A DNA stretch of 64,000 nucleotides from Thuidium tamariscinum (taxonomy: Eukaryota; Streptophyta; Bryopsida; Hypnales; Thuidiaceae): positions 17,375,501-17,439,500 of the forward strand of contig OX344749.2 in assembly GCA_947034885.2 (NCBI GenBank), in the 5' to 3' direction. Position 1 is the stretch's first letter. Every line of letters begins with the position of its first letter. Below are positions 15,771 through 59,530 of this stretch, piece after piece. The notes below the pieces were generated by a model. The model saw only the letters and a program-made list of their open reading frames with translations, was not told the DNA's origin and did not search any database. Made by a program: the position numbers and the translations under genes.

Positions 15771-15774
15771 TGTA

Positions 15775-17167
15775 CAGTGGGGTACCAATCAAAATGTCGT
15801 TTTCGCATCTGCAGTGAGAAAAATTTCGGTACTGCCAACTTTGGAAGCCTCCCGCGAGCTCAAAAATTGATATTTTACCACGAAATTTTTACCACAGCAT
15901 AATCTTTAAGTTAACTATATGTATGCCAAATTTCAAGGCCAAAAGATTCACCAAAAAAAAGTTATTCAAAATCTACCAACATGGGTAGTGGTGAGAAACA
16001 TTTCACTACTTTCAACTTTGACACCTTCCTAAGGATTGAGTTTTTTTGTTTTGCCATGAAATTTTTGTCATGAAACAATCTTTATGTTTTTAATATGTAA
16101 ATAAAATTTCAAGGTAAAAGAATTTTTTCTTAAGAAGATATTTGAAATCTCCCAACAAGTGTAGTTTTGAGAAAATTTTCACAATTTCCAACTTTGACAC
16201 CCTCCCAAGGGCTGAAAAATTGGTTTCTTACCATGAATTCTTTTTGTGAAGTCACATCTATATTGATAATATGTTCTCTAAATTTCAAGTTCAAATGAAT
16301 TACCAAAAAAAAGATATACAAAGTCTCCCAACATGTGTGAGTTGTGAGGAGGAGTTTTTGAGCCCTTAGTATAGTGTTATTTTGTGGAGCAAAGTTTGAC
16401 ACGAATGTAAAAACTTAGCCTCACAACTACACATGTTGAGAGATTTTGAATATCTTTTTCTGGGTAAGTGTTTTGAACTTGAAATTTGGAACATATATTA
16501 TCAACATAAAGTTGATCTTATTCAAAAATTTCATGTTAAATAGACAAATTTTCAGCCCTTGGGAGGGTGTCAAAGTCAGCAATAGTGAAAATTTTCTCAC
16601 AACTACACATGTTGGGAGATTTTGTATATCTTTTTTTTGGTAATTCATTTGAACTTGAAATTTAGAGAACATATTATCAACATAGATGTAACTTCACAAA
16701 AAAAAATTCATGGTAAGAAACCAATTTTTCAGCCCTTGGGAGGGTGTCAAAGTTGGAAATTGTGAAAATTTTCTCAAAACTACACTTGTTGGGAGATTTC
16801 AAATATCTTCTTAAAAAAATTCTTTTAACTTGAAATTTTATTTACATATTAAAAACATAAAGATTGTTTCATGACAAAAATTTCATGGCAAAACAAAAAA
16901 ACTCAATCCTTAGGAAGGTGTCAAAGTTGAAAGTAGTGAAATGTTTCTCACCACTACCCATGTTGGTAGATTTTGAATAACTTTTTTTTGGTGAATCTTT
17001 TGGCCTTGAAATTTGGCATACATATATTTAACTTAAAGATTATGCTGTGGTAAAAATTTCGTGGTAAAATACCAATTTTTGAGCTCGCGGGAGGCTTCCA
17101 AAGTTGGCAGTACCAAAAAATTTCTCACTGCGGATGCGAAAACGACATTTTGATTGGTACCCCACTG
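15775..17167. mobile_element. 1.39 kb palindromic (foldback) DNA element, TA target site, ends CAGTGGGGTACC
   Basis: The whole element is an inverted repeat. The left end at 15775 reads CAGTGGGGTACCAATCAAAA and the right end is its complement, ending at 17167. TA lies on each side (15773-15774 and 17168-17169). The arms, about 0.6-0.7 kb each, meet near 16.4 kb. Each arm contains three to four tandem units of about 172-178 bp, marked by CAACTTTGACACC...CCC at about 15836, 16014 and 16192 and by the complement at about 16569, 16747, 16920 and 17097. There is no transposase frame. TA duplication and a CAGT terminus fit a pogo/Tigger-like or other Tc1/mariner-type non-autonomous element; the superfamily is inference. 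Transcripts would fold into a long hairpin. Confidence 0.88.
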
Positions 17168-17174
17168 TACATTT

Positions 17175-22262: not shown

Positions 22263-23802
22263 TGCTAAAGTATGAGCAATGAGCAATTCGATTTGAGCGC
22301 TCGTTACAAGGATTTTTATTAAAAATAGATATATTAGAGTAATAAATAATATTGTCAAATACCAAAATAAAAATGTCAAAAAAGATAAAAAGAAAAAAAT
22401 ACCAAAAGAATTTCAAATTTTTAATTTAAATAATCAATGTTGCAAGAAAATATTGCATGAAGGGATATCCATTCATCCACATACAAATGAACTTCATCCA
22501 TGTCATCCATGTCATCATCTTTCTTTGGTTCCTTGAATTTTGAAGAGCCTTCTTTGGGAGGGCCTATTGGCACCAAGAAAGTGCTTCTCGGATCCGAAAA
22601 GCCTTTCTTATGTACCAAGGAGTTTTCCTTCAAAGAACCCTTTGGTACCAAGGAAGGGCTCCTCGAAATCCAAGGAGTCTTCATTGGGTTCTGAGGATCC
22701 TTAAGTTTCGAGGAGCCTTCCTTGGAAGAGCATGTTGGCACCAAAGCCTCCCAAGATCCGAGGAGCCTTCTTTAGATACCAAATTTTTTTTTAAGTAAAT
22801 ACTTTGGCACCAAGGAAAGGTTCCTTGGATCCGAGAAGCCTTTCTTGAATACCAAAGAGTCTTTTTTACATGAAACCTTTGGCACTAAGGAAGAGTTCCT
22901 TGGATCTAAGAAGCCTTCATTGGGTCCCAAGGAGTCTTTTTTAAATGAGTCTTTTGTCATAAGGAAGGGCTCCAAAGAGCCTTTTTTTTTTAATCTGAAG
23001 AGCCTTCTATTGGCTTGGAGAGACTTTCATAAAAAGCAAAGACCTTTCTATGACCTTTTATAAATAGAAGCTAGGTTCATTAGCACCAAAAAGTGACTTC
23101 TTGCATTTGAAGAGCTTTCTATGGTGCCAAAAGTCTATCGACATCAAAAAAATTAAGAGAGGGTCCCTTGGTACTAAGAAATATCTCCTCAGATCCGAAA
23201 AGCCTTCTATAGTAGTAAGAGTCTATTTAATGACATACTAAAAAAATAAAGAGAGAGACCTTGGGCACTAAAAAGTAAAGAAAGGCTTCTCGATACCAAG
23301 GAGCCTTCTTTTGACTCCAAAGAATCCTCCTTTGATGTAGAAAGACCTTCACAAAAAATATAAAGAGAGTTTTTTGACAAGAAGAAATAGCTCTTCAATG
23401 CCATGTCATGAATATTCTTTTTAAGAGTAATTTTTTTGAAAAGAAATTTGAGTTTCTTTTTGTAACCATATTTAAGAAAAACTTAAACTAATAGACCCAA
23501 GATCCTCTAATTAAAAAATTAAAAAATTAAAAAAAATAAAGGAAAGAAAATGAGGCCATTTTTAGTCTTAGGCAACAATCATCCATCATTCAATGCAATT
23601 GACAATATATGTATTTCATCCAACATGGTCAATTAAAAAAAGTTCATGCAAATCCATTTTTCTTCATTCATCCTTTTTAGACTTATTTATAGCCAAATTT
23701 TATTGCTCTAAACCACAGACATAGGCATCTTAAGTTGAAGAGTTTTAAAATTTTCATATGTTCTTCTATAAATGTTTTGTGCTCATTGCTCATACTTTAG
23801 CA
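22263..23802. mobile_element. 1.54 kb element with TGCTA...TGAGC terminal inverted repeats
   Basis: A perfect 23-bp inverted repeat bounds it: TGCTAAAGTATGAGCAATGA followed by GCA at 22263-22285, with its complement at 23780-23802. The ends contain repeated TGAGC words, as in the elements at 37.8, 52.0 and 61.6 kb. The interior from about 22500 to 23400 is a degenerate tandem array. The element sits between a complete piggyBac-like element and a short ATTAGAGG element. No transposase was recognised; the target-site duplication is unclear. Confidence 0.7.
22500..23400. repeat. degenerate tandem array built on GGTACCAAGGAAGGGCTCCT / GGATCCGAGGAGCC units
   Basis: Repeated, partly palindromic words alternate: TTTGGCACCAAGGAAGG, GGATCCGAGGAGCC, CCAAGGAGTCTTC. 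The spacing is roughly 60-90 bp. Because the unit is near-symmetrical and lacks stop codons, frames stay open on both strands (22421-22744 minus; 22500-22694, 22610-22798 and 22845-23063 plus). These give Ser/Pro/Lys-rich repeats that I regard as artefacts, not genes. The array lies inside the TGAGC-ended element. Confidence 0.65.
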
Positions 23803-26205: not shown

Positions 26206-28964
26206 TCACCTTTTATTCATTCCATAAGCAAATCCATCGATAGAGCCATTCACCAAATTGGCAATTTCAAATCCAGGCATTACTTTTAATAATGCTTTTG
26301 GATAGTTAGTAACCTCTTGAATTGTTGCTAAATGGTATTGTGAGGGCAACTCATCGTCAATGCCAAACAATCTACAAGACAAGCATGCAAGAATTAATTA
26401 GTAAGGCAAATCATTGCTTTGTACAAGTTCCTAGAAAAATAAGTCACATTCTAATTTAAAATATAATATACAATATGGAGAGAAGCGATCATACAATCAA
26501 CCTTGTAACCAAATCATCACAAAAACCTAGTCAACAACAACAATTAGATTAAATATACTCTAGTTTGAAAATATTTATCAAAATTTATTAGAAAACAAAT
26601 GAAGGAACAAAACAATTTCCTAACAATAATTTTAAAAAGATAAAATCAAATACTTCATAATTAAGAAAAATTGCTACAATCACACTAAAATATAAGAACT
26701 AATAAAAAGTACACAAATCAAAATGATGAATATTTTTTAAAAATCAATATAAATTGACTTATGCTAAGAAACAGTCAATACCTAAATTGGCATAGTTGTG
26801 TGGAAATTGTCTCCACCACATCTACAATTTCAAAGAATGTAGGTCACAATCTTGGATTTGGCTCCCAACATTTGAAAATCAAGTCCTTCACCACACCATC
26901 CAAGTCACTTGGCAACTGTGGTCTTTTCCCCTCAATTACAAGTTGGCGATCAGCTTTGGTATTTCTAAGCTCTCCATCGAATGGAATTCGCCCTGTGACT
27001 ATTTCAAAGCATGTCATACCATAACTATACACATCAGCTTTCTTCCATTGCTCATTTGTAATAGATTCTAGATTTCCTAGTGTTGTCAATATCTTTGGTG
27101 CTCTCCAAAATCCGGTTCCCAAAACTCCTATTGAACATTCAAAATCAGCTACAAGAATCAAATTGTTAATCAAATCACCAATTAGGACATGATGGCAAGT
27201 AGCAAGATCATAAGGAAGAAGTACAGTCAGGTCCAGCTCAATTACGAATTCTTGCATACACAGGGAACAAAACTTCACTGCTCCCAATTTTGATGCCCTC
27301 CCAAGGGCAGAAAAATTATTTTTTTAACATGAAATTTTTTTCACAAGATCCTCTCTATGTTAATAACACATGTGACAAATTTCAAGGTCAAAAAATTTAC
27401 CAAAAAAAAGATATTTAGAATCTACTAACATGTGTAGTTAAGAAAAAAACTTCACTACTATCAACTTTGACACCCTCCCAAAAATTGAAAAAAAAAAATT
27501 TGTCCATGAAATTTTGGTCATGAGATCACCTTTATGTTAATTATATGTGTCGTAAATTTCAGGTTCAAAAAATTTATTCCAAAAAAGATATTCGAAATCT
27601 ACTACCATGTGTCAATATAAGGGACAATTTCACTATTGCCAACTTCGATGTACATATTGGTAGATTTCAAATATATTTTTTGTGTGAATCTTTTGAACTT
27701 GAAATTTATCTTACATGTTATCAACACAAAGATGATCTCATGAAAAAAGTTTCATGGCCAAAACTTTTTTTTTCAATTTTTGGGAGGGTGTCAAAGTTGG
27801 TAGTAGTGAAAGTTTTTTCTTAACTATACATGTTAGTAGATTTTGAATATCTTTTTTTCGGTGAATCTTTTGGCCTTGAAATTTTCCACACATATAATCA
27901 ACATAGAGATGATTTCACTCCAAAAATTTCATGCCAAAAGAAAAAGTTTTCAATCCTTGAGACATTGGCAAAGTTGACAGCAGTGAAAGCTTACAACTAC
28001 ACATGTTGATAGATTTTGCATATCTTTTTTTGGGTGAATCTTTTGGCCTTGAAATTTTCCATATATGTTATCAACTTAGAAATGATCTTGTAAAAAAAAT
28101 TTCATAGTAAAAAACTAATTTTTCAGCCCTTGAGAGGGTGTCAAAGTTGACTGTAGTGAAATTTTCTTTAACTGTGACTGCAAAAATTCGTAATTGAGCT
28201 GGACCTGACTGTACATTAGAAGCTTTGAGGTCCCTATGAGAAACACCCTTCTCATGTAAGTGTAGCATGTGTTCTGCAATCCCTGACATGAAGTCTATAG
28301 GGTGAAGGATCCAATCTCTGTATTGCCTCCACTTGTAGGAAAATGGTGGACCCTGGATACCATTCGCATTCTTCTCCCACATCGCCTGGTCAATCAACTT
28401 CCAGATCACAAACGCAAACCTGCCATCCTCCAACATACCTGCATATGAAATGCATTGGTAAACATTGTCGTTGAGGACTGGAAGAGGCCACGATTGCTTC
28501 AAATCTCGTAGCGATGTTCCTCTCTCAAATACCTTCATCAAAAAGAAAGGGTGGTCATCAACTTCATGAATATCTGCTTGTCCACCCTTCGCAATCTTGC
28601 GACCCAAAACATAACCATCGAGGCCACGCTTAAACAAACAAGGATACTCTTCCCTGAATTGCTTCAACAGTTTCCTGTTTTCTCGATTCAGTTCTAACTC
28701 CTCTGCCGACTGCGGCGCAACCTCAAGGCGGCTCACTTCGCTCCAATGCGACTTCGAAAACTCAATCTCCGACGCAACACCGTCATAGAATTTGCCTCTG
28801 CTCCTTATCATCGCCTCGCAGCGTGCGGAATAGTATTCTGTCCTCCCGAAAGTGGACGCTCCCTCCGCCAGCACCATCTCCAATTCTGCAACTCCGTCAT
28901 TTTCTGTGCACGGACACTCTTCAACCTTGGCGATGCAGAAACAACACGAGGAACTTGCGCCCAT
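26206..28964 (-). pseudogene. protein kinase pseudogene, split by a TA-flanked palindromic element and carrying a nonsense codon
   Basis: The start is taken at ATG 28964 because MGASSSCCFC fits an N-myristoylation site (MGxxxS) with adjacent Cys for palmitoylation, suggesting a membrane-anchored kinase. Residues about 117-251 hold the N-lobe: Gly-rich loop GRKIAKGGQADI (121-132), Lys in FLMKVF (144), catalytic loop HRDLKASN (243-250). At codon 251 (GTA, 28212-28214) the frame is broken by the element at 27224-28211. It resumes at 27221 with the C-lobe: VADFECS (DFE for DFG), GTGFWRAPKIL (Lys where APE has Glu), WKKADVYSYGMTCFE. A TGA at 26844-26846 then replaces the expected Arg in the CWEPNPRL-x-P motif; the following codons still read PTFFEIVDVVETIS. 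A last exon (26371 down to a stop at 26206) joins through an AG|GTATTG donor at 26782/26781. The family resembles moss-expanded Raf/MLK-like kinases. Gene dead or truncated. Confidence 0.8.
27224..28211. mobile_element. 988-bp palindromic DNA element inside the kinase, TA target site, ends CAGTCAGGTCC
   Basis: The left end at 27224 reads CAGTCAGGTCCAGCTCAATT and continues ACGAATT. The right end is the exact complement over at least 27 bp. TA is duplicated at 27222-27223 and 28212-28213. The arms are inverted copies made of units of about 170-180 bp carrying the same CAACTTTGACACCCTC...GGGCTGAAAAATT motif as the element at 15775-17167, so the two belong to one superfamily with different end sequences. 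There is no transposase frame. Removing the element and one TA restores a continuous kinase frame across the GTA codon. Confidence 0.9.
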
Positions 28965-32415: not shown

Positions 32416-35276
32416 CTACCTACTTGCAGCTTCATCGATGTATCCTGCCGCTCGACCGGTTCGGCCCTCCACCACTTCATAACTAGCAGGAACAGAATCA
32501 GTGTCCTTGTCTGCTTCGGAATTGTGTATTTCTAAGCCTTGATAGCTGCGGAGAGCTAAGTACTCTGAGCTTGACGTGACTCCCGTGCTTCTACGGCCAG
32601 AACTAGCCACAGCCAACGAGGATGGAGGACGTAATTGCAGAGCTCGTTCAGATGCTTCTGAAAGAATAATTGCTCTTGAAACGCTTTCGTCACCGTTTTC
32701 ATCTGGCAGGCAAGTAATCCCACACCCTTCAAACATCAGTATCTGGATATCCCAACCTGCTCCCAGGTTATTTTTAGCACTTTTGACTGGGTCATATGGG
32801 GACATTCTGTTGTTCACTTTTATTTATTTTAGGCCAAACCGTGCAATGTTCTTCAGAGATCCTCATGGCATAACTTTAGCACCCATCTGAATTATATTTT
32901 TCAAAATAAAATCAATAGAATAGTTCTTTATCAAACCATGAATACTTGGCACTTTAAGGGTTAAGATAACATGGGAGATCCCACTTCCCAGAGAACACTA
33001 ACGATGAAATTATTTGGAAAAGAGAGGAAATTTGAATAGTATAGAAGTTAAAATCCTTCTAGTACTACAAACTTATATAAAGCTTGCCCTCAAATTGCAC
33101 ATTACTAGATAAAGTGCACGTTGCCCACCTACAATGCAACTCGATTTTTTATGAAAAGCGAACACACTAGGTCACAAGTGGCACACCTGATAGTAAAGTG
33201 CAAGCTTCATCTCCTTCGTGCACTGGTTTTTCCCCTGGCTTTGGCAGCTGATCCAATTCCAGATTAAAGGCTCCAGTCCATTCTCTTCCTTCGACAAAAG
33301 CCAACTCGGCCTCGAAGGGCGTGATCAGAGGAGCGAGATACTCTTTACTATCCAGAAGTACTGTTTGGGAACATGCCACAAGTACAAATACATCACACTC
33401 GGGGAAATTTGCCAGCTTTGCTGGATTGGGTCTGCCCATGAGCATCGTGTATGACTTTTTTCCTGCAATGCATATTACCCATTCAGAAATCAAATCCTAA
33501 ATCCTAATCAGAGTCACTGCCCCGCTAAGTGCTCAAACAGCCAACAGTGATTGCTTCTACATCTACAGGAGTTGAAATAGATCATTCAGGAATATTCAAG
33601 AAAGGTAACAAGATGCACCAACACAGACGAAATCGCAACCTACACTATTGAACGCTAGAAATGCGTAGTCAATGTTACTACGATCGACTATTAGCTTTCA
33701 AAGTGGACTCTCCTTTTAGCACACGCACTTTGCTGCTTACGAGCGTCCAAAGTAACATAAACAAGCCAAAAAAACTCACAAATTCCTTCCATGAAGTTAA
33801 GGTAACTGCAAACAAAAGAATCAATGAATTGTCAAGATAATGCTCACAAACAAGATGCAGTGTAACAAGTATTGCCGACCTGCTGATGCGACTATCTCTC
33901 GAACACGCTGAATTGCCTCATTGTATCCAGCAACACCCAGCGTGCCAACCACAATCCCAACAATGCTTGCCTCTTTCGCACGTTCAACTAGATAAAACCT
34001 ACGCATCAGATCCTTGCTCTTGCTTGGCAGATCCTCCACCAGCACTTCATCCTCTGCATTGTACCTTAAATAATGAATGCACATACATCAGTCTCGCAGG
34101 CACTTAAGTCTTACACTGACTAGAACATGTAAAAAACTGCAACTTTACTAAAATCAAAAAGGTCTTCCAAAAATTTTCAAATAAAAATACCACACCACTT
34201 GGATAGTGCCGACGCAATCAAATACACGGATCTATCCTACTAGTGAGGGCGCAAAATTAGTGTCCCTATGAAGTTCTATTGAATTACCGGTTGTGAAATA
34301 CAGCATAATATTTGAGCGCGCACTAATATAAAAGAGTGTCAATTTGGTAAATTAGTCTCCCACACACTAATGGAATAAATCGGTGCACCCTTCTTCAGCT
34401 CTCAAGTATCTAAACAGACCTGAAACGCTTAGGTTATAGGGTTTAAGACATGGACTACCTGACGATAGTATTCTTGCTATGCGTCAGCAATAAGTTTGTA
34501 AGTGCAGCTCCTTCATCCCCAATCCAAAGAATCGCAACGTCTTCCATGGTCACGTCCTTCGGCAAAGACCATTTGAGTCCCCCTATACTCTCACGGGGTT
34601 GTGAAGTTTCCACCCTTTCTAGCTTCATTTCTTTCCCAGAAGAGATAACCGGATCCTGAATAGTAGCACCCGAACAAGTAGAGCATGCAGATTTCACTTG
34701 ACTCCCATTACAAGCCCCATGGAAACATGAAGTAACCTGCTCCTGGGAGCCAGTACCCGACTGTCTACTTCGAAGAGGCTCCATTTCACATTTGGGAACC
34801 TCAGCAAATATAACAACGCCGGCATCTCTGCACGCTTCCACCTCACCTTTGATGCCCTCAATTGCGTGTGCGTACTCCAATGCAAATAGAACAAGGAGTG
34901 GTTGATTCCGGCAAGAACAGAACCTCAAAATCTCTTTGCTACAATGATAGTTGTTGATTCGGTTTCGGCCAAACACAAAAAACACTGGCAGACGCGAGGT
35001 TTGGCTCAGACATGCGTGACCATAGTGAATAACGCACTGGGCGTCTACGTGAGCTGCCGCTACCTCATCGACACAACAACTACCGTAGGTTGTATCAGCC
35101 ATGACATAGAGATTGATATCGTGTTGTGACAGAGCAGAACGAAGCAACGACGTGACTTCAACACTGGCTCCCAAGAGATCGTCCGAGAATTGGAGCGCAA
35201 CGCGTGTGAATCCACGATCGAGAATGTACGTCGCTGTGGCCAAGATGTCGTATTGCTCCATAGGACTCAAATCCAT
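32416..35276 (-). CDS. DPH2: DPH2, diphthamide biosynthesis subunit (4 exons)
   Basis: DPH2 partners DPH1 in the cytosolic iron-sulfur, radical-SAM-type enzyme that transfers a 3-amino-3-carboxypropyl group to a histidine of elongation factor 2, the first step of diphthamide synthesis. Exons (minus): 34459-35276, 33880-34064, 33187-33462, 32416-32702. Introns are 394, 417 and 484 bp with donors CAG|GTAGTC, CAG|GTCGGC and CAG|GTGTGC. Coding length is 1566 nt, giving 521 residues, near the yeast length. The family core is clear: [20 protein letters not shown] (61-80) and HYGHACLS (84-91); then [32 protein letters not shown] and [19 protein letters not shown]. The C-terminus has [15 protein letters not shown] and [13 protein letters not shown], as in plant DPH2. 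The start is the first ATG of the frame. Residues about 173-245 between the N-terminal core and [10 protein letters not shown] are a long Ser/Cys-rich linker. Confidence 0.94.
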
Positions 35277-35323
35277 TGCGAATACAAGAAGGAAACCTTG
35301 GAAGATGAACCCTGAAATCCTAA

Positions 35324-35340
35324 AACCCTAAACCCTAAAT
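35324..35340. promoter_or_regulatory. telo-box next to the DPH2 start
   Basis: AAACCCTAAACCCTAAA, two telo-box copies about 50 bases upstream of ATG 35276, followed by a degenerate TCCTAAAATT. This is a typical position for a telo-box in promoters or leaders of plant translation-related genes, and it fits the role of DPH2. Confidence 0.65.
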
Positions 35341-36183: not shown

Positions 36184-37125
36184 TTAAACCCTAAAGGTTT
36201 TTGACTACGTTTTCACCAAAAATGCTCTAAAACTACCATTTCTAGTACAAGTACCAACTTTATAAAAAAAAAAATTTGGAGATATGTAACTGTAGGATCT
36301 TGTAGTAACTCTAGTTCAAGAAGATGTGGAAAAAGTTTCGAAAATTTCTACTGTGTAGATTGCAAGATATTAGCATTTGAATTGACAAATATATATTTTT
36401 TTAACCTTACAAAAAGTTATACAGTTGTACTTTAAATGGTCACATTTGTATGAAAAAATGTCCAATATGGTAGTTACTCTTTGGATTTGTTCTTCAAAGC
36501 AAGTTTGCTACATGCTTGAAAATTTTCAAATCATTTGAATTATACAACATACAGAAAATAGTAAGTAGTAAGAAACAAAGAATGATTCTAAGTACTAAAT
36601 TTTTTGTAATTTATTTGTGAAATTGAAAAATGCCAATCCCAATAGTTATAACATTGTAATAACCAACATACACCTATTTTTTTAAATTACAAAAATATTA
36701 AAAATAAAATAAAATAAAAATTTCAAAATTTCTTTTTGAATAGAGATTCCATAATTATCGACAAACTACTTACAAACTAAGACTTCTCATAACTCTCATC
36801 TCATTTATCAAAATGGAATGATTCAAAGATTTCTATGTAAATCTAATAAATCAATTTGTAATTTTTATTTTTCAAAAAAGTGATTTTTGAAGAAGTTTAT
36901 TTAGCTGTCAAAGTTGCCTACTAAGTAATGAAAATCACTTATCATACAATAACTTTTTAACAATGAAGTCAAAAGTTATGAAAATTGTTGGAACTAAAAG
37001 TTACTCCTTGGAAGAATGTTTTGTGAAAATTTCAACCAAAAAAATGAATAAACTTCATTTGTAGTGAGTTGCCTAAAATTGCTATTTTACTTTTTTTTTA
37101 AATGCAATTTAGGACTTTGGAGTAA
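36184..37125 (-). mobile_element. piggyBac-like element family B, inverted copy
   Basis: Starts TTAAACCCTAAAGGTTTTTG at 36184 and ends near GGACTTTGGAGTAAACG at 37125, where the TTAA is mutated. It aligns inverted with 21287-22223, for example TTTCAAATCATTTGAATTAT near 36525. Non-coding. Confidence 0.6.
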
Positions 37126-37796
37126 ACGGAAGAATGTATATTCATTTGAATTTCATAACATTCATGGAGTAATGGATGGTACAGTCTACCAATTGATTTT
37201 GTGGATAAAAATTCTTCACAAATTAGAGCACTTTATGCATTCTGCTAAGAAAATTAGCTTTTAAATCTAATTCTTTAATTATAAATATAACATGATCTCA
37301 ATGAAAGTGCAATGCACCATGTATATACAAATTAGTTATATATCAACCATAGAGTCAAATTTCAATTGTGAAAAACGATTTATTTCAATTGATATAGAAT
37401 TTTAAAACTCCCATTTTAATATTGCCTTCAACAAATTCTATCAAAACTTATATAATAAGATTTTTCCCTTTTAAAATTTAGATGAAAAAATTCATTAATT
37501 TTTTCACCTGAAAATTTAAATTTTCATGAGTATGAACTCAAAGTTCCATAAAAATAGTTTTTTAGAATTAAATAAACTTCAAAATTAGAACAATTTGTTA
37601 TGAAACTAAAAAAATATCTATAGGATCTAAATTATTTTAAAGGTATTTCATTATTACATATTTGAAACTTTGAATTCCACATGATTGCTAAAAGTTACAG
37701 CTCAAAATTGCATCAACATACTTATTTTTCATGAAATTTATTGTGCATTGTCAAGCATGCAATGTCTTTAAAGAATCTAATGTATTTGCGCGGGGA

Positions 37797-38635
37797 TGCT
37801 ATTTTGTGAGCCTGCGAGCGTGAGCCTATGAGCTTGTGAGCTTGTGAGCCTAGAATTTTGGTGAAATTTTTAGTGATTTTTAGGGCGTGAACCTATTACC
37901 GTGCTTTAAGAATTTTGGATTTTTATATCTAGTATCCCCCTCGTGGGATTTGAAATTTGTGACTTTCAAAACTTTTTTTTTCAAAAAAAAAATTTTCAAT
38001 TTTTTTCAATTTTTTTTCAATCCTTTTTTTATTTTTCAAATTTTTTTTGCAACTCCATCACCCTCCAAAATCCCTCTTGATGTTAAAAGGTGTTTGGAGG
38101 TAGAAGGCTTTGGAGCTCTCAAAACTTTGTTTTTCATTTTTTTTCAACTTTTTTTCATTTCTTTTCCGACTATGTTACTAGTTCATTTCTTCTGCGACTT
38201 TTAGCCCTTGAAAACCTTCTCTCGTTACCAAGAGATCAATTTCAGGGTGATAAAGTCGGAAAAAAAAAAAAAAATTTTTTTTTTTTTTCACGACTCTATC
38301 ACCCTAGAAAACCCCTTGTTGGATTCTGGATTTTGAACCTCAAAAAAAAATTCAAAAATTCAAATTTTTTTTTGGAAGGTATTGAGAGGCCCTTTGGAGA
38401 TAGTAGGGTCTGAAATTTTAAAATACATTAACCACATTTCCATGGTCATAGGTTCACGGTCATAGGTCCACAGTCATGAAGCTGAAATTTTACTATAAAT
38501 AGATTTTTTTTAAATGACTTCATTTTTTCTTTCTCTTGGCTTAAGAAATTCAAAGTTTTTTTTGGTTAATTCTTTGGGCTCACAAAACCTACGCTCACAG
38601 CTCGCAAGCTCATGCTTTTAGGCTCACAAACTAGT
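37797..38635. mobile_element. 0.84 kb element with GCTA...GTGAGCC ends made of TGAGC subrepeats
   Basis: The left end is TGCTATTTTGTGAGCCTGCG, followed by a run of imperfect 8-10 bp repeats (GTGAGCCTAT, GAGCTTGT, GAGCTTGT, GAGCCTA). The right end is the inverted counterpart, with CTCACAGCTCGCAAGCTCAT and GGCTCACAAACTAG. The interior carries repeats of a CCAAGAGRGG / CACCCTCCAAAA type related to those at 52.0-53.5 kb. The 105- and 107-codon plus-strand frames inside are T-rich low complexity and not genes. Confidence 0.65.
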
Positions 38636-38720
38636 GTCGTTGGTATTTGCATAAACATAATTGCCATCTTACAAATGAAATTGGATATAATGATTTTGGG
38701 CATTAGCATTCCAAAACCAA

Positions 38721-39363
38721 TTAAGCCCCAAAGGTCCAAAGTGCATTTTTTGGCAACATATCAATTTTGGGTAGCTCACTACAAATAGAGTTTATATTTT
38801 TCCTCTTTGAATTTTCACACAACATTTTTCTTGGGTCCACTTTAAGGCCCAACAATTTTCATAACTTTTGACTATATAGTTAACCCCTAAAGAACTGCAA
38901 ACTACGTTTTTTCACAATATAGCAATCTTAGGCAACTCACTACGGCTAGAGTTAGGTGTTTTTTTCTTTGAAATTTTCATATAACATGCACCTAAGGAAT
39001 AGCTTTAAGGCCCAATAATTTTCAAAACTTTTGACTTTGTGTTTAAAAAGTTACTACATGATATGCGATTTTTGTTGTTCAAGTGTCAGCTTGGGTAGCT
39101 CAAAAAATTTCTTTAAAAAACACTTTTAAAAAGAATTAAAATTTGAAATTGATTCTTTAGGTTTTTATAGACACTTGTAGGTTTTTATAGAAAAGTATGA
39201 AGAAAATTCATATCAAATACAAATATATTCAAATAATATGGAATTTTCACCATAGATGAATACTCACTACAAGAAAATGGAGTCTTTGAAAACCATATCT
39301 ACCCACAAACTAAAAATCCTTGTAACTTTCATCTCATTAATCCTATATCCACTTGGTGATTGA
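38721..39363 (+). mobile_element. truncated piggyBac-like family B fragments
   Basis: Two successive left ends occur, TTAAGCCCCAAAGGTCC at 38721 and TTAACCCCTAAAGAACTGC at 38880. Each is followed by the family B word order (TTTTTGGCAACAT or TTCACAATATAGCAA, then ACTCACTAC). Both keep TTTAAGGCCCAA at 38841 and 39004, the undisturbed version of the site occupied by another element at 50441. Confidence 0.5.
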
Positions 39364-40291
39364 TTAGCCCCTAAAGGTTTTTGACTATGTTTTCATCCAA
39401 AACTGTGATTTCTAATACAAGTGCAAAATTTTAGGAAAAAAAATATTTTTTGACATATGTAAGTATAGGCTCTTGTAGAAAGGTGGTTTCGAAAGATGTG
39501 AAAAAAATTTCAGAAATTTTCCCCATATAGATTGCAAGATATTAGCATTTGAATTGACAAAAAAAAATTTATCCATGCAAAACCCACACAACTCCACTTC
39601 ACAAAGTCACATTTGTATGTGAAAATGTTCAAAATTGTGGTTACTCTTTGGATTCATCGTTCAATGAGACTTGGCTATATGCTCAAAAATTTTTAAATCA
39701 TTTTAAATCGTATAACATATAGGAAAAATTCTATCAGTAGAAAGAAGTAGAAAATGATTCAAAATACGGATTACTAAATTATGAACAATTTATTTATGAA
39801 AATGAAAAATTACAATCCTAATGGTTGTAATATTGTAATAAACAATCTTCACCTAATGTATTATTGTTTTTTCAAAAATATTAGAATTGATTTAAAATAA
39901 AGGATTTCAAACTTTTTGTAGAATAGAGATTCTATAACTACCTGCAAATTACTCCAAACTAAAATGGCCTCATAAATTTCATTTCATTAATCACAATGGA
40001 ATGATTCAAACATAGATATAAAATCAATAAAGTAATTTCTATTTTTTATTTTTTTTAAAAGAAATTTTTTGAGTTGCCTATATTGCTCACCGGGTAAAGA
40101 AAATGATATATCATGCCATAATTTTTTAACCATGTAGTCAAAAGTTATTAAACTATTGGGCCTTAAAGCTACTCCTAGAAAAAAATGTTTTTCAGATAAT
40201 TTTTAAGAAAAAAAATAAAAACTCCATTTGTAATGAATTGCCCCAAATTGCTATATTGCTAAAAAACATAGTTTAGGGCTTTAGGAGTTAA
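39364..40291 (-). mobile_element. piggyBac-like element family B, second inverted copy
   Basis: 928 bp from TTAGCCCCTAAAGGTTTTTG (39364) to ...GGGCTTTAGGAGTTAA (40291). On the minus strand the element begins TTAACTCCTAAAGCCC. The interior aligns with 36184-37125. The left TTAA is mutated to TTAG. Confidence 0.62.
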
Positions 40292-57539: not shown

Positions 57540-59530
57540 TTTATATCAAGCAAGCACTAAGAATTACCTTTACAAATGCTTTCAAATAGTGCAAAAAAAG
57601 TTTTAAAAATGTACAAGTTCTTGTGAGGTGAATAATGTTTTTTATCATGAGATGGTTTCAAGATAGTGAGTTGTCAAATTAGATAGGCATTAAGAATTGT
57701 CCCTAGAGATGCCCTAAAACACTCCAAAAGAGGTTTTAAGAAATTACAAATTCTTGTGAGGTGAATGATGTGATTCCCAAGGCACGGGTTCAGAATAGTG
57801 AGTAGTCAAAATGAGTAGGCATTAAGAATCATCCCTAGAAATGCCTTGAAACAATGCAAAACTAGTTTGAAGAAAATACAAGTTCTTGAGAGGTGAGAAA
57901 ATGTGATTTCAAGGGCATGGTTTCAAACCAATGAGTAGTCAAATCTAGCATCCATCAAAAATCATCCCTTGTGACGCCTTGAATTAGTGCAAAAGTGGTT
58001 TTGAAAAAGTACAAGTTCATGTGAGATAAAAAATTGTGATTTCAAGGGCACAAATTCAAGCCAATCAGTGGTCAAATCCAACAAGCATAAAAAATCATCC
58101 CTAGTGATACCCTGAATTAGTGCAAAAGCGAATTTTAAAAAGTACAAGTTCTTGTGAAGTAAGGAAACGTGATTTCAAGGGCACGGCTTCAAGCCAATGA
58201 GTAGCTAAATCCAGCAAGCATCAAAAATCATCCCTAGTGACGCCTTGAATTAGTGCAAAAGTGAATTGAAAAAAGGACAAGTTCGTGTGAGGTGAGAAAT
58301 TGTAATTTCAAGGGCACAAATTCAAGCCAATCAGTGGTCAAATCCAGCAAGCATCAAAAGTCATCCCTAGTGATGCCCTGAATTAGTGCAAAAGCAAAAT
58401 AAAAAAGCACAAGTTCTTGTGAGGAGAAGAAACGTGATTTCAAGGGCACGGCTTCAAGCCAATGAATAGCTAAATCCAGCAAGCATAAAAAATCATCCCT
58501 TATGACGCCCTCAATTAGTACAAAAGTGAATTAAAAAAAAGGACAAGTTCATGTGAGGTGAGAAATTGTGATTTCAAGGGCATAAATTCAAGCCAATCAG
58601 TGGTTAAATCCAGCAAGCATCAAAAATCACCCCTTATGACGCCCTGAATTAGTACAAAAGTGAATTAAAAAAAAGGACAAGTTCATGTGAGGTGAGAAAT
58701 TGTGATTTCAAGGGCACAAATTCAAGCCAATCAGTGGTCAAATTCAGGAAGCATCAAAAATCATCCCTAGTGACGCTCTGAATTAGTGCAAAAGCGAGTT
58801 AAAAAAGGTACAAGTTCTTGTGAGGTGAGGAAATGTGACTTCAAGGGCACGGCTTCAAGCCAATGAGTAGCTAAATCTAGCAAGTATCAAAAATCATCCC
58901 TTGTAACGCCCTGAATTAGTGCAAAAGTGAATTAAAAAAAAGGACAAGTTCATGTGAGGTGAGAAATTGTGATTTCAAGGGCACAAATTCAAGCCAATCA
59001 GTGGTCAAATTCAGGAAGCATCAAAAATCATCCCTAGTGACGCTCTGAATTAGTGCAAAAGCGAAATAAAAAAGTACAAGTTCTTGTGAGGTGAAGAAAC
59101 GTGATTTCAAGGGCACGGCTTCAAGCCAATGAATAGCTAAATCCAGCAAGCATCAAAAGTCATCCCTAGTGACGCCCTGAATTAGTGCAAAAGCGAATTT
59201 AAAAAGGTACAAGTTCTTATGAGGTGAGGAAACGTGATTTCAAGGGCATGGCTTCAAGCCAATGAGTAGCTAAATCTAGCAAGTATCAAAAATCATCCCT
59301 AGTGACACCTTGAATTAGTGCAAAAGTGGTTTTAAAAAAGTACAAGTTCTTGTGAGGTGAGGAAATGTGATTTCAAGGGCATGGTTTCAAGCCAGTCAGT
59401 GGTTAAATCTAACAAGCATCAAAAATCATCCCCAGTGATGCCCTGAATTAGTGCGAAAGCGAAATAAAAAAAGTATAAGTTCTTGTGAGGTAAGGAAACA
59501 TAATTCGAAGGACAGATTCAAGATAGTGAG
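57540..59530 (+). repeat. 133-bp satellite array with alternating A and B monomers
   Basis: The landmark GAATTAGTGC (or a close variant) recurs at 57981, 58114, 58247, 58380, 58512, 58646, 58780, 58913, 59047, 59179, 59312 and 59445, a spacing of 132-134 bp. More diverged units extend back to about 57540. Two monomer types differ after GATTTCAAGGGCA: A has CGGCTTCAAGCCAATGAGTA, B has CAAATTCAAGCCAATCAGTG. From 57981 the order is B A B A B B A B A A, then a mixed unit, so a 266-bp dimer is the dominant higher-order unit. No coding capacity. Confidence 0.9.

Follow-up and report, generated by a model that had tools for sequence, protein, structure and literature searches.

A recent Tc1/mariner-type foldback insertion in a putative kinase gene of the moss Thuidium tamariscinum

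Tc1-like transposons are already described in a moss: PpTc1 and PpTc2 of Physcomitrella carry CAGT ends and a TA duplication, according to the accessible part of the source (PMC4054914). Compared by that description, the Thuidium tamariscinum element reported here shares both the CAGT...ACTG ends and the TA duplication, and both systems show recent bursts, the latest peaks of PpTc1 and PpTc2 lying about 1-1.5% from consensus and the 40 nearest copies of our foldback element a mean of 0.86% (PMC4054914, accessible part). The architecture, however, is different: PpTc1 and PpTc2 are coding elements of 1.6-1.7 kb with 33-bp ends, whereas the foldback element is non-coding and built of repeats of about 170-175 bp, and the DD34E transposase of the Physcomitrella elements has its match here in a candidate partner, not in the foldback element itself (PMC4054914, accessible part). 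The words “foldback,” “palindrom” and “TGTACA” are absent from the accessible text of that source.

Tetris of Drosophila virilis is alike, again by description, in being a foldback element with arms made of tandem repeats; it differs from the element here, however, in its far longer arms and the external flanking domain they have, no transposase was identified for it, and its repeats occur as satellite arrays of kb size as well (PMC4079207, accessible part). Galileo, another foldback element of Drosophila with tandem-repeat arms, is comparable by description in its long, internally repetitive inverted repeats. Galileo is a member of the P superfamily, unlike the Tc1-type element here; Stowaway elements do have a TA duplication, as here, but their ends are different, they are shorter, and they lack internal repeat arms. 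Stowaway and other plant Tc1/mariner MITEs are likewise non-coding, and in potato a Stowaway MITE, dTstu1, occupies the first exon of a gene for a flavonoid hydroxylase (PMC12595863, accessible part). Finding a transposon within an exon is nothing unusual; the architecture and the choice of target described below are less ordinary, and no report of a plant foldback element of Tc1 type, or of a TGTACA preference, turned up in searches of open-licence papers. What we describe is a real, recent Tc1/mariner-type foldback insertion, and its architecture and target preference are its interesting parts.

Limits and anatomy of the element

The window (the whole stretch of DNA analyzed, 64,000 nucleotides of contig OX344749.2) carries the features collected in Table 1. 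An earlier note on this DNA had placed a 988-bp element between two TA dinucleotides at 27222-28213, with exact inverted repeats of 27 bp (TA not counted). These limits are confirmed by a 29-mer, TACAGTCAGGTCCAGCTCAATTACGAATT, which reads at 27222-27250 on the plus strand and at 28185-28213 on the minus strand (shuffle mean 0.00, n = 100), and the 27 exact terminal bp are present in the consensus of 40 copies as well. The note's description of the element as palindromic holds for these perfect termini and not for the whole, which is only 73% identical to its own reverse complement.

Table 1. Positions in the window of the element, its parts, the interrupted gene and a related element
Feature	Positions	Strand	Remark
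Non-coding foldback element, non-autonomous, Tc1/mariner type	27224..28211	.	988 bp
Left TA target-site duplication	27222..27223	.	
Right TA target-site duplication	28212..28213	.	
Left terminal inverted repeat, perfect 27 bp	27224..27250	+	
Right terminal inverted repeat, perfect 27 bp	28185..28211	-	
Internal unit L1	27264..27438	-	closest mirror partner R1, 81%
Internal unit L2	27442..27612	-	closest mirror partner R3, 82%
Internal unit R3	27650..27819	+	
Internal unit R2	27823..27992	+	without mirror partner
Internal unit R1	27996..28166	+	
Kinase gene, upstream part, MGASSSCC... to HRDLKASNV	28212..28964	-	
Kinase gene, downstream part, LLPYDL... to CWEPNPRL	26847..27221	-	
Second lesion, in-frame TGA, subdomain XI	26844..26846	-	Arg in paralogues aligned there
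Related foldback element, 1,393 bp	15775..17167	.	seven units of same repeat

Between ends of about 40 bp, the element is made up of five units of 170-175 bp; the left arm has two of them and the right arm three, which are inverted. As expected from inverted arms, a strong hairpin is predicted, both as RNA (-475 kcal/mol vs. -200 for 20 shuffles, z -45) and as DNA (-278 vs. -95 shuffled, z -33). Perfect 27-bp ends together with mirror units about 18% apart have a probability of 0.004 under a single common divergence; the perfect ends fit a source element with previously diverged arms, in which recognition by the transposase kept the ends intact. The terminal CAGT...ACTG inverted repeats, a Tc1/mariner feature, are present, and yet no frame of at least 150 codons lies inside the element, which encodes no DDE/D transposase of the Tc1/mariner superfamily; because it is non-coding, it is filed as non-autonomous with Tc1-type ends and not as a Tc1 element. 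Like a MITE, it is non-coding and exists in many near-identical, full-length copies of uniform size; at 988 bp it is long for one. A homology between ends and internal units, as reported for Tetris, is weak at best (the observed mean is reached by 6/300 and 6/300 shuffles on the two strands; 32/300 and 85/300 in the relative described next). The degenerate end pattern hit two loci in viral contigs (L001 and L002), one match each and no second inverted end by that same pattern, and the unit pattern search gave no match.

The relative at 15.8 kb lies between TAs at 15773-15774 and 17168-17169, with GTAC on both sides. Its units, three left and four right, form mirror pairs that are 97-99% alike, and its arms are 96-98% complementary. 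Tandem-repeat inverted arms in which the number of repeats varies, the mark of a Tetris-like foldback element, are therefore found twice in the window: five units (2+3) in one case and seven (3+4) in the other. The ends of the relative differ from those of the 988-bp element (TACAGTGGGGTACCAATCAAAATG...). In global alignment of the two, the right ends are matched by 15/5,000 shuffles and the left by 80/5,000; without the first four bases, 219/5,000 shuffles do as well, so that end kinship beyond CAGT rests partly on the intermediate-like ends of other copies' neighbors.

Elsewhere in the window, a 133-bp unit forms a tandem array at 57587-59498 (14.4 copies, 81% matches). A further set of diverged inverted repeats at 36832-39171 and 40195-40274, in which the longest arms measure 213 nt, are 75% complementary and lie 1.9 kb from each other, may represent another mobile element. 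Repeats of about 50-75 bp in direct and inverted orientation, with GGATCCGAGAAGC-like motifs, occupy 22583-23325, and an exon of a diphthamide synthesis gene lies at 34458-35327 on the minus strand (PF01866, E 1.4e-33).

The interrupted gene and its paralogues

The element sits in the catalytic loop, as the earlier note had it, and the frame is kept across it: HRDLKASN plus the codon GTA ends at 28212 on the minus strand, and the frame restarts at 27221 (LLPYDLATCHH). Twelve stop codons lie within the element in the host kinase frame, the first of them at 28073-28071. The further claim that the frame rejoins with no other change survives in part: the in-frame restart is there, but 125 codons later the frame meets a TGA at 26844-26846, in the context CWEPNPRL*PTFFEIVDVVE of the conserved subdomain XI. 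This position is Arg in 18/19 paralogues (L075 is gapped there). The Glu of the APE motif, retained in 19/19 paralogues, is Lys in the window gene, while its DFE in place of DFG is the family's own form (DFE in 18/19 paralogues and DYE in one). Judged by the domains of its downstream part (PF07714, E 1.3e-9; PF00069, 3.9e-8), its motifs and its paralogues, the gene is a kinase; the upstream part alone gives a weak PF00069 match under the curated cut-off (19.4 of 31.7 bits), and a PDB search with this part and its 5' extension returned no match at E 0.001.

The kinase protein as read through the site was searched against the genome and yielded 698 candidates, of which 109 were scored, with 117 matches listed; the 19 best of these besides the window gene's own part were aligned, the rest being partly fragments or sequences with stops. 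All 19 read HRDLKASN(I/V)L or a close variant (HRN in L075, KAAN in L083 and L086) with nothing inserted, which argues that no ancestral intron stood at the site; among these 19, L088 has a stop in the match list. The earlier note had taken the presence of the same sequence here in all paralogues as a mark of an intron, and none of the 19 aligned from the 117 listed carries it. Paralogues without the element are thus observed directly, and the element, on this comparison, is an insertion and not an ancestral intron. Related kinase genes, 65-70% identical to the window gene and with DFE (once DYE), are clustered on contig C7 at about 16.9-18.9 Mb (L073, L075-L091); the window kinase is a dispersed member of the family on C1.

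The median Nei-Gojobori dN/dS of the window kinase against the 19 paralogues is 0.43, compared with 0.51 for 171 paralogue pairs; such pairwise values are averages over a long branch in which recent decay would not show. At 114 sites that are invariant among the paralogues, the window kinase departs at 4 (the stop counted), and the corresponding figure for the individual paralogues, each compared in this way, is 0 to 5 of 109-115. There is, then, no sign of long decay in the pairwise dN/dS, though a short decay would escape these values. Because the second lesion and the APE-motif change are both present, the insertion may not be what ended kinase function.

Copies, target sites and a candidate transposase

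The genome searched comprises 363.2 Mb in 19 contigs. All 40 scored matches, the nearest of 1,994 first-look candidates and including the window copy, are full length and 97-100% identical, and these 40 nearest copies probably understate the size and diversity of the family. Their alignment is star-like, with a mean of 0.86% from consensus and 228 private vs. 42 shared variants; the window copy has 10 differences from consensus (1.01%), 9 of them private. Such a star-like pattern of low divergence is that of a recent burst, whose age would be of the order of a million years if a rate of 1% per million years, as used in PMC4054914 (accessible part), applies. The suggestion of a fairly recent insertion is borne out by this young, star-like family, by the TA on both sides of 60/60 copies and by the 9 private differences of this copy in 988 bp. 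Reverse-strand matches of the copies to the window copy are mostly 73-79% identical, and the arms therefore diverged before the burst. Genome-wide, the exact 29-mer end occurs 57 times forward and 63 times reverse, the reversed control 0 times in either direction, and the outer end bases show single changes in a few of 39 copies. That element plus TA is 990 bp, a multiple of three, proved meaningless: 56/60 copies span 983-991 bp and the other four 815, 972, 1259 and 3977 bp.

The longest of these, at L052 503-4479 (G000:C2:13937404-13941380), is a 3,977-bp foldback copy with TA on both sides; about 2.3 kb of it contain an F-box reading frame. With its ends 3.98 kb apart it was considered as an autonomous copy and rejected, there being no transposase in its listed frames and the insert consisting of the F-box frame and other repeats. 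The F-box stretch is 89% identical to two loci on C3; the copy also holds a repeat of about 413 bp that recurs widely elsewhere, as well as an insert of 272 bp whose inverted ends measure 18 bp. It may represent a case in which a TA foldback element has captured a gene.

Target sites were compared in 60 copies (the window copy, the 39 other scored matches and 20 from the end-pattern list), and the flanking TA was observed directly in every one. The target hexamer is TGTACA in 46/60, AGTACA in 7 and others in 7; within the window, TGTACA accounts for 29 of 4,558 TA sites (binomial 1e-88). On the left, position -1 (next to the TA) holds G in 56 copies, A in 2 and C in 2, and position -2 holds A in 8/60. 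Since the left -1 base varies and the base before the right TA is the element's own, the duplication is TA and no more. This refines the earlier view that coding logic alone fixed the target: it did fix the joined product, but with GTAC on both sides the duplication could have been 2 to 4 bp until the other copies showed TA. A duplication longer than TA, suggested by the GTAC that flanks both window elements, is ruled out by the left-base variation in the 60 copies.

The wider consensus of the 60 sites resembles ACTG-TA-CAGT, the junction of two element ends at a TA, and 5 of the 39 copies tested adjoin another element of the same units, with the junction end-TA-end (the scan detected the neighbor's two ends in one case, L096). 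Tentatively, and with more doubt than confidence, we suggest that a Tc1-type transposase may choose targets that look like its own element ends and so insert preferentially at the ends of sister foldbacks, building head-to-end, satellite-like rows of the 170-175-bp units.

DDE_3 matches number 48 in the genome, 46 of them over the family cut-off, and three transposase stretches were read (L104+L102, L103 and L101). The open frame of L102, 389 codons long, encodes DDE_3 and HTH_Tnp_Tc3_2 domains and has 34 residues from the second Asp to the Glu (DD34E), and L104+L102 together are one 2,765-bp element with TA on both sides. Its ends, CAATCAGGTCCATTTCATTTACGAATT on the left (starting CAAT) and CAGTCAGGTCCAATTCATTTACGAATT on the right, are 23/27 and 24/27 identical to the end of the 988-bp element; over 35 bp the right end has 28 identical positions, where 30 shuffles reach no more than 22. 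A transposase gene between similar ends is thus observed directly. L103 has a like right end (23/27) and no left end in the stretch read, with a like end farther upstream at C5:20615277; no end of this type was seen in the stretch of L101 that was read. By coordinates, 4 of the 48 DDE_3 matches have such an end 309-313 bp away; for two matches outside the stretches read, C5:9479492 and C9:11015554, the distance is 310-312 bp (coordinates only). A 989-bp copy with variant ends (L106) has one end 29/31 identical to that of the Tc1-like element. The interior of the L104+L102 element has no similarity to the foldback consensus beyond chance-level matches; because just the ends are shared, it may be a relative of the actual partner and not the partner itself.

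From these ends we infer that the foldback family was likely cross-mobilized by a Tc1-like transposase. The window element itself is very probably a copy of a recently amplified, non-coding foldback transposon that a Tc1-like DD34E transposase, acting in trans, moves by cut-and-paste. This enzyme would bind the ends of about 27 bp and join them to a TA, preferably in TGTACA, leaving the TA duplicated. Here the target TA belonged to the codon GTA of the catalytic loop, so that HRDLKASN and the C-lobe are now on opposite sides of the element; translation would meet a stop after about 46 codons of element sequence and, we infer, kinase function would be lost.

Alternative readings and what the insertion means

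A different mover, be it from a superfamily whose duplication is longer (GTAC or TGTACA) or a pogo-like transposase, would account for the GTAC around both the window element and its 15.8-kb relative, and CAGT ends are not unique to Tc1. We consider it improbable, given that the left flank shows A or C at -1 in 4/60 copies and A at -2 in 8/60, that the right-hand bases are those of the element end, and that Tc1-like transposase elements with similar ends exist in this very genome. More improbable still is that the element is, or works as, an intron, spliced out in the manner of transposon-derived introners so that the kinase is still made. The base preceding the TA does create a GT (GTACAG) at the minus-strand start, and GT at 28214 with AG at about 27236, just before the end of the terminal repeat, would give a four-residue in-frame insert; introners that add four residues are described in the accessible part of PMC9860276, which, however, also reports finding none in land plants. 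Beyond the uninterrupted loop of the 19 aligned paralogues, 17 of 48 GT x AG pairs keep the frame open up to NPRL, where one third would be 16, and nothing points to selection for splicing; the downstream stop at 26844 would remain in any case. Nor does the family appear typically exonic, judging by open frames across 60 sites (shorter exons could escape such an annotation-free count): the longest is that of this copy, 258 codons in 798 nt examined, far above the next, 172 codons at L060 with its GC-rich flanks.

A recent Tc1-type insertion is compatible with a kinase that was already dead when the element arrived as a passenger in a pseudogene, a history that we regard as unlikely on balance, although it has a real share of the probability. 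The in-frame stop and the lost APE Glu, both at sites invariant among the paralogues aligned there, would agree with it, as would the position of the gene on C1 when 18/19 retrieved paralogues are on C7. Set against this, there is a single stop, no frameshift is needed, and about 376 codons are open up to that stop; the dN/dS and the departures at invariant sites given above also speak against it; and, on a rough estimate, about half a stop would be expected by chance since the insertion at roughly 1% element divergence.

Here a mobile element, a foldback of Tc1/mariner type, has interrupted a gene in nature; the age of the insertion can be bounded, and the uninterrupted state is visible in the 19 checked paralogues. 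A foldback element that is satellite-like, has Tc1-type ends and strongly prefers TGTACA makes the link between DNA transposons and satellites testable in one genome, and the target choice of Tc1-type transposases is testable there likewise.
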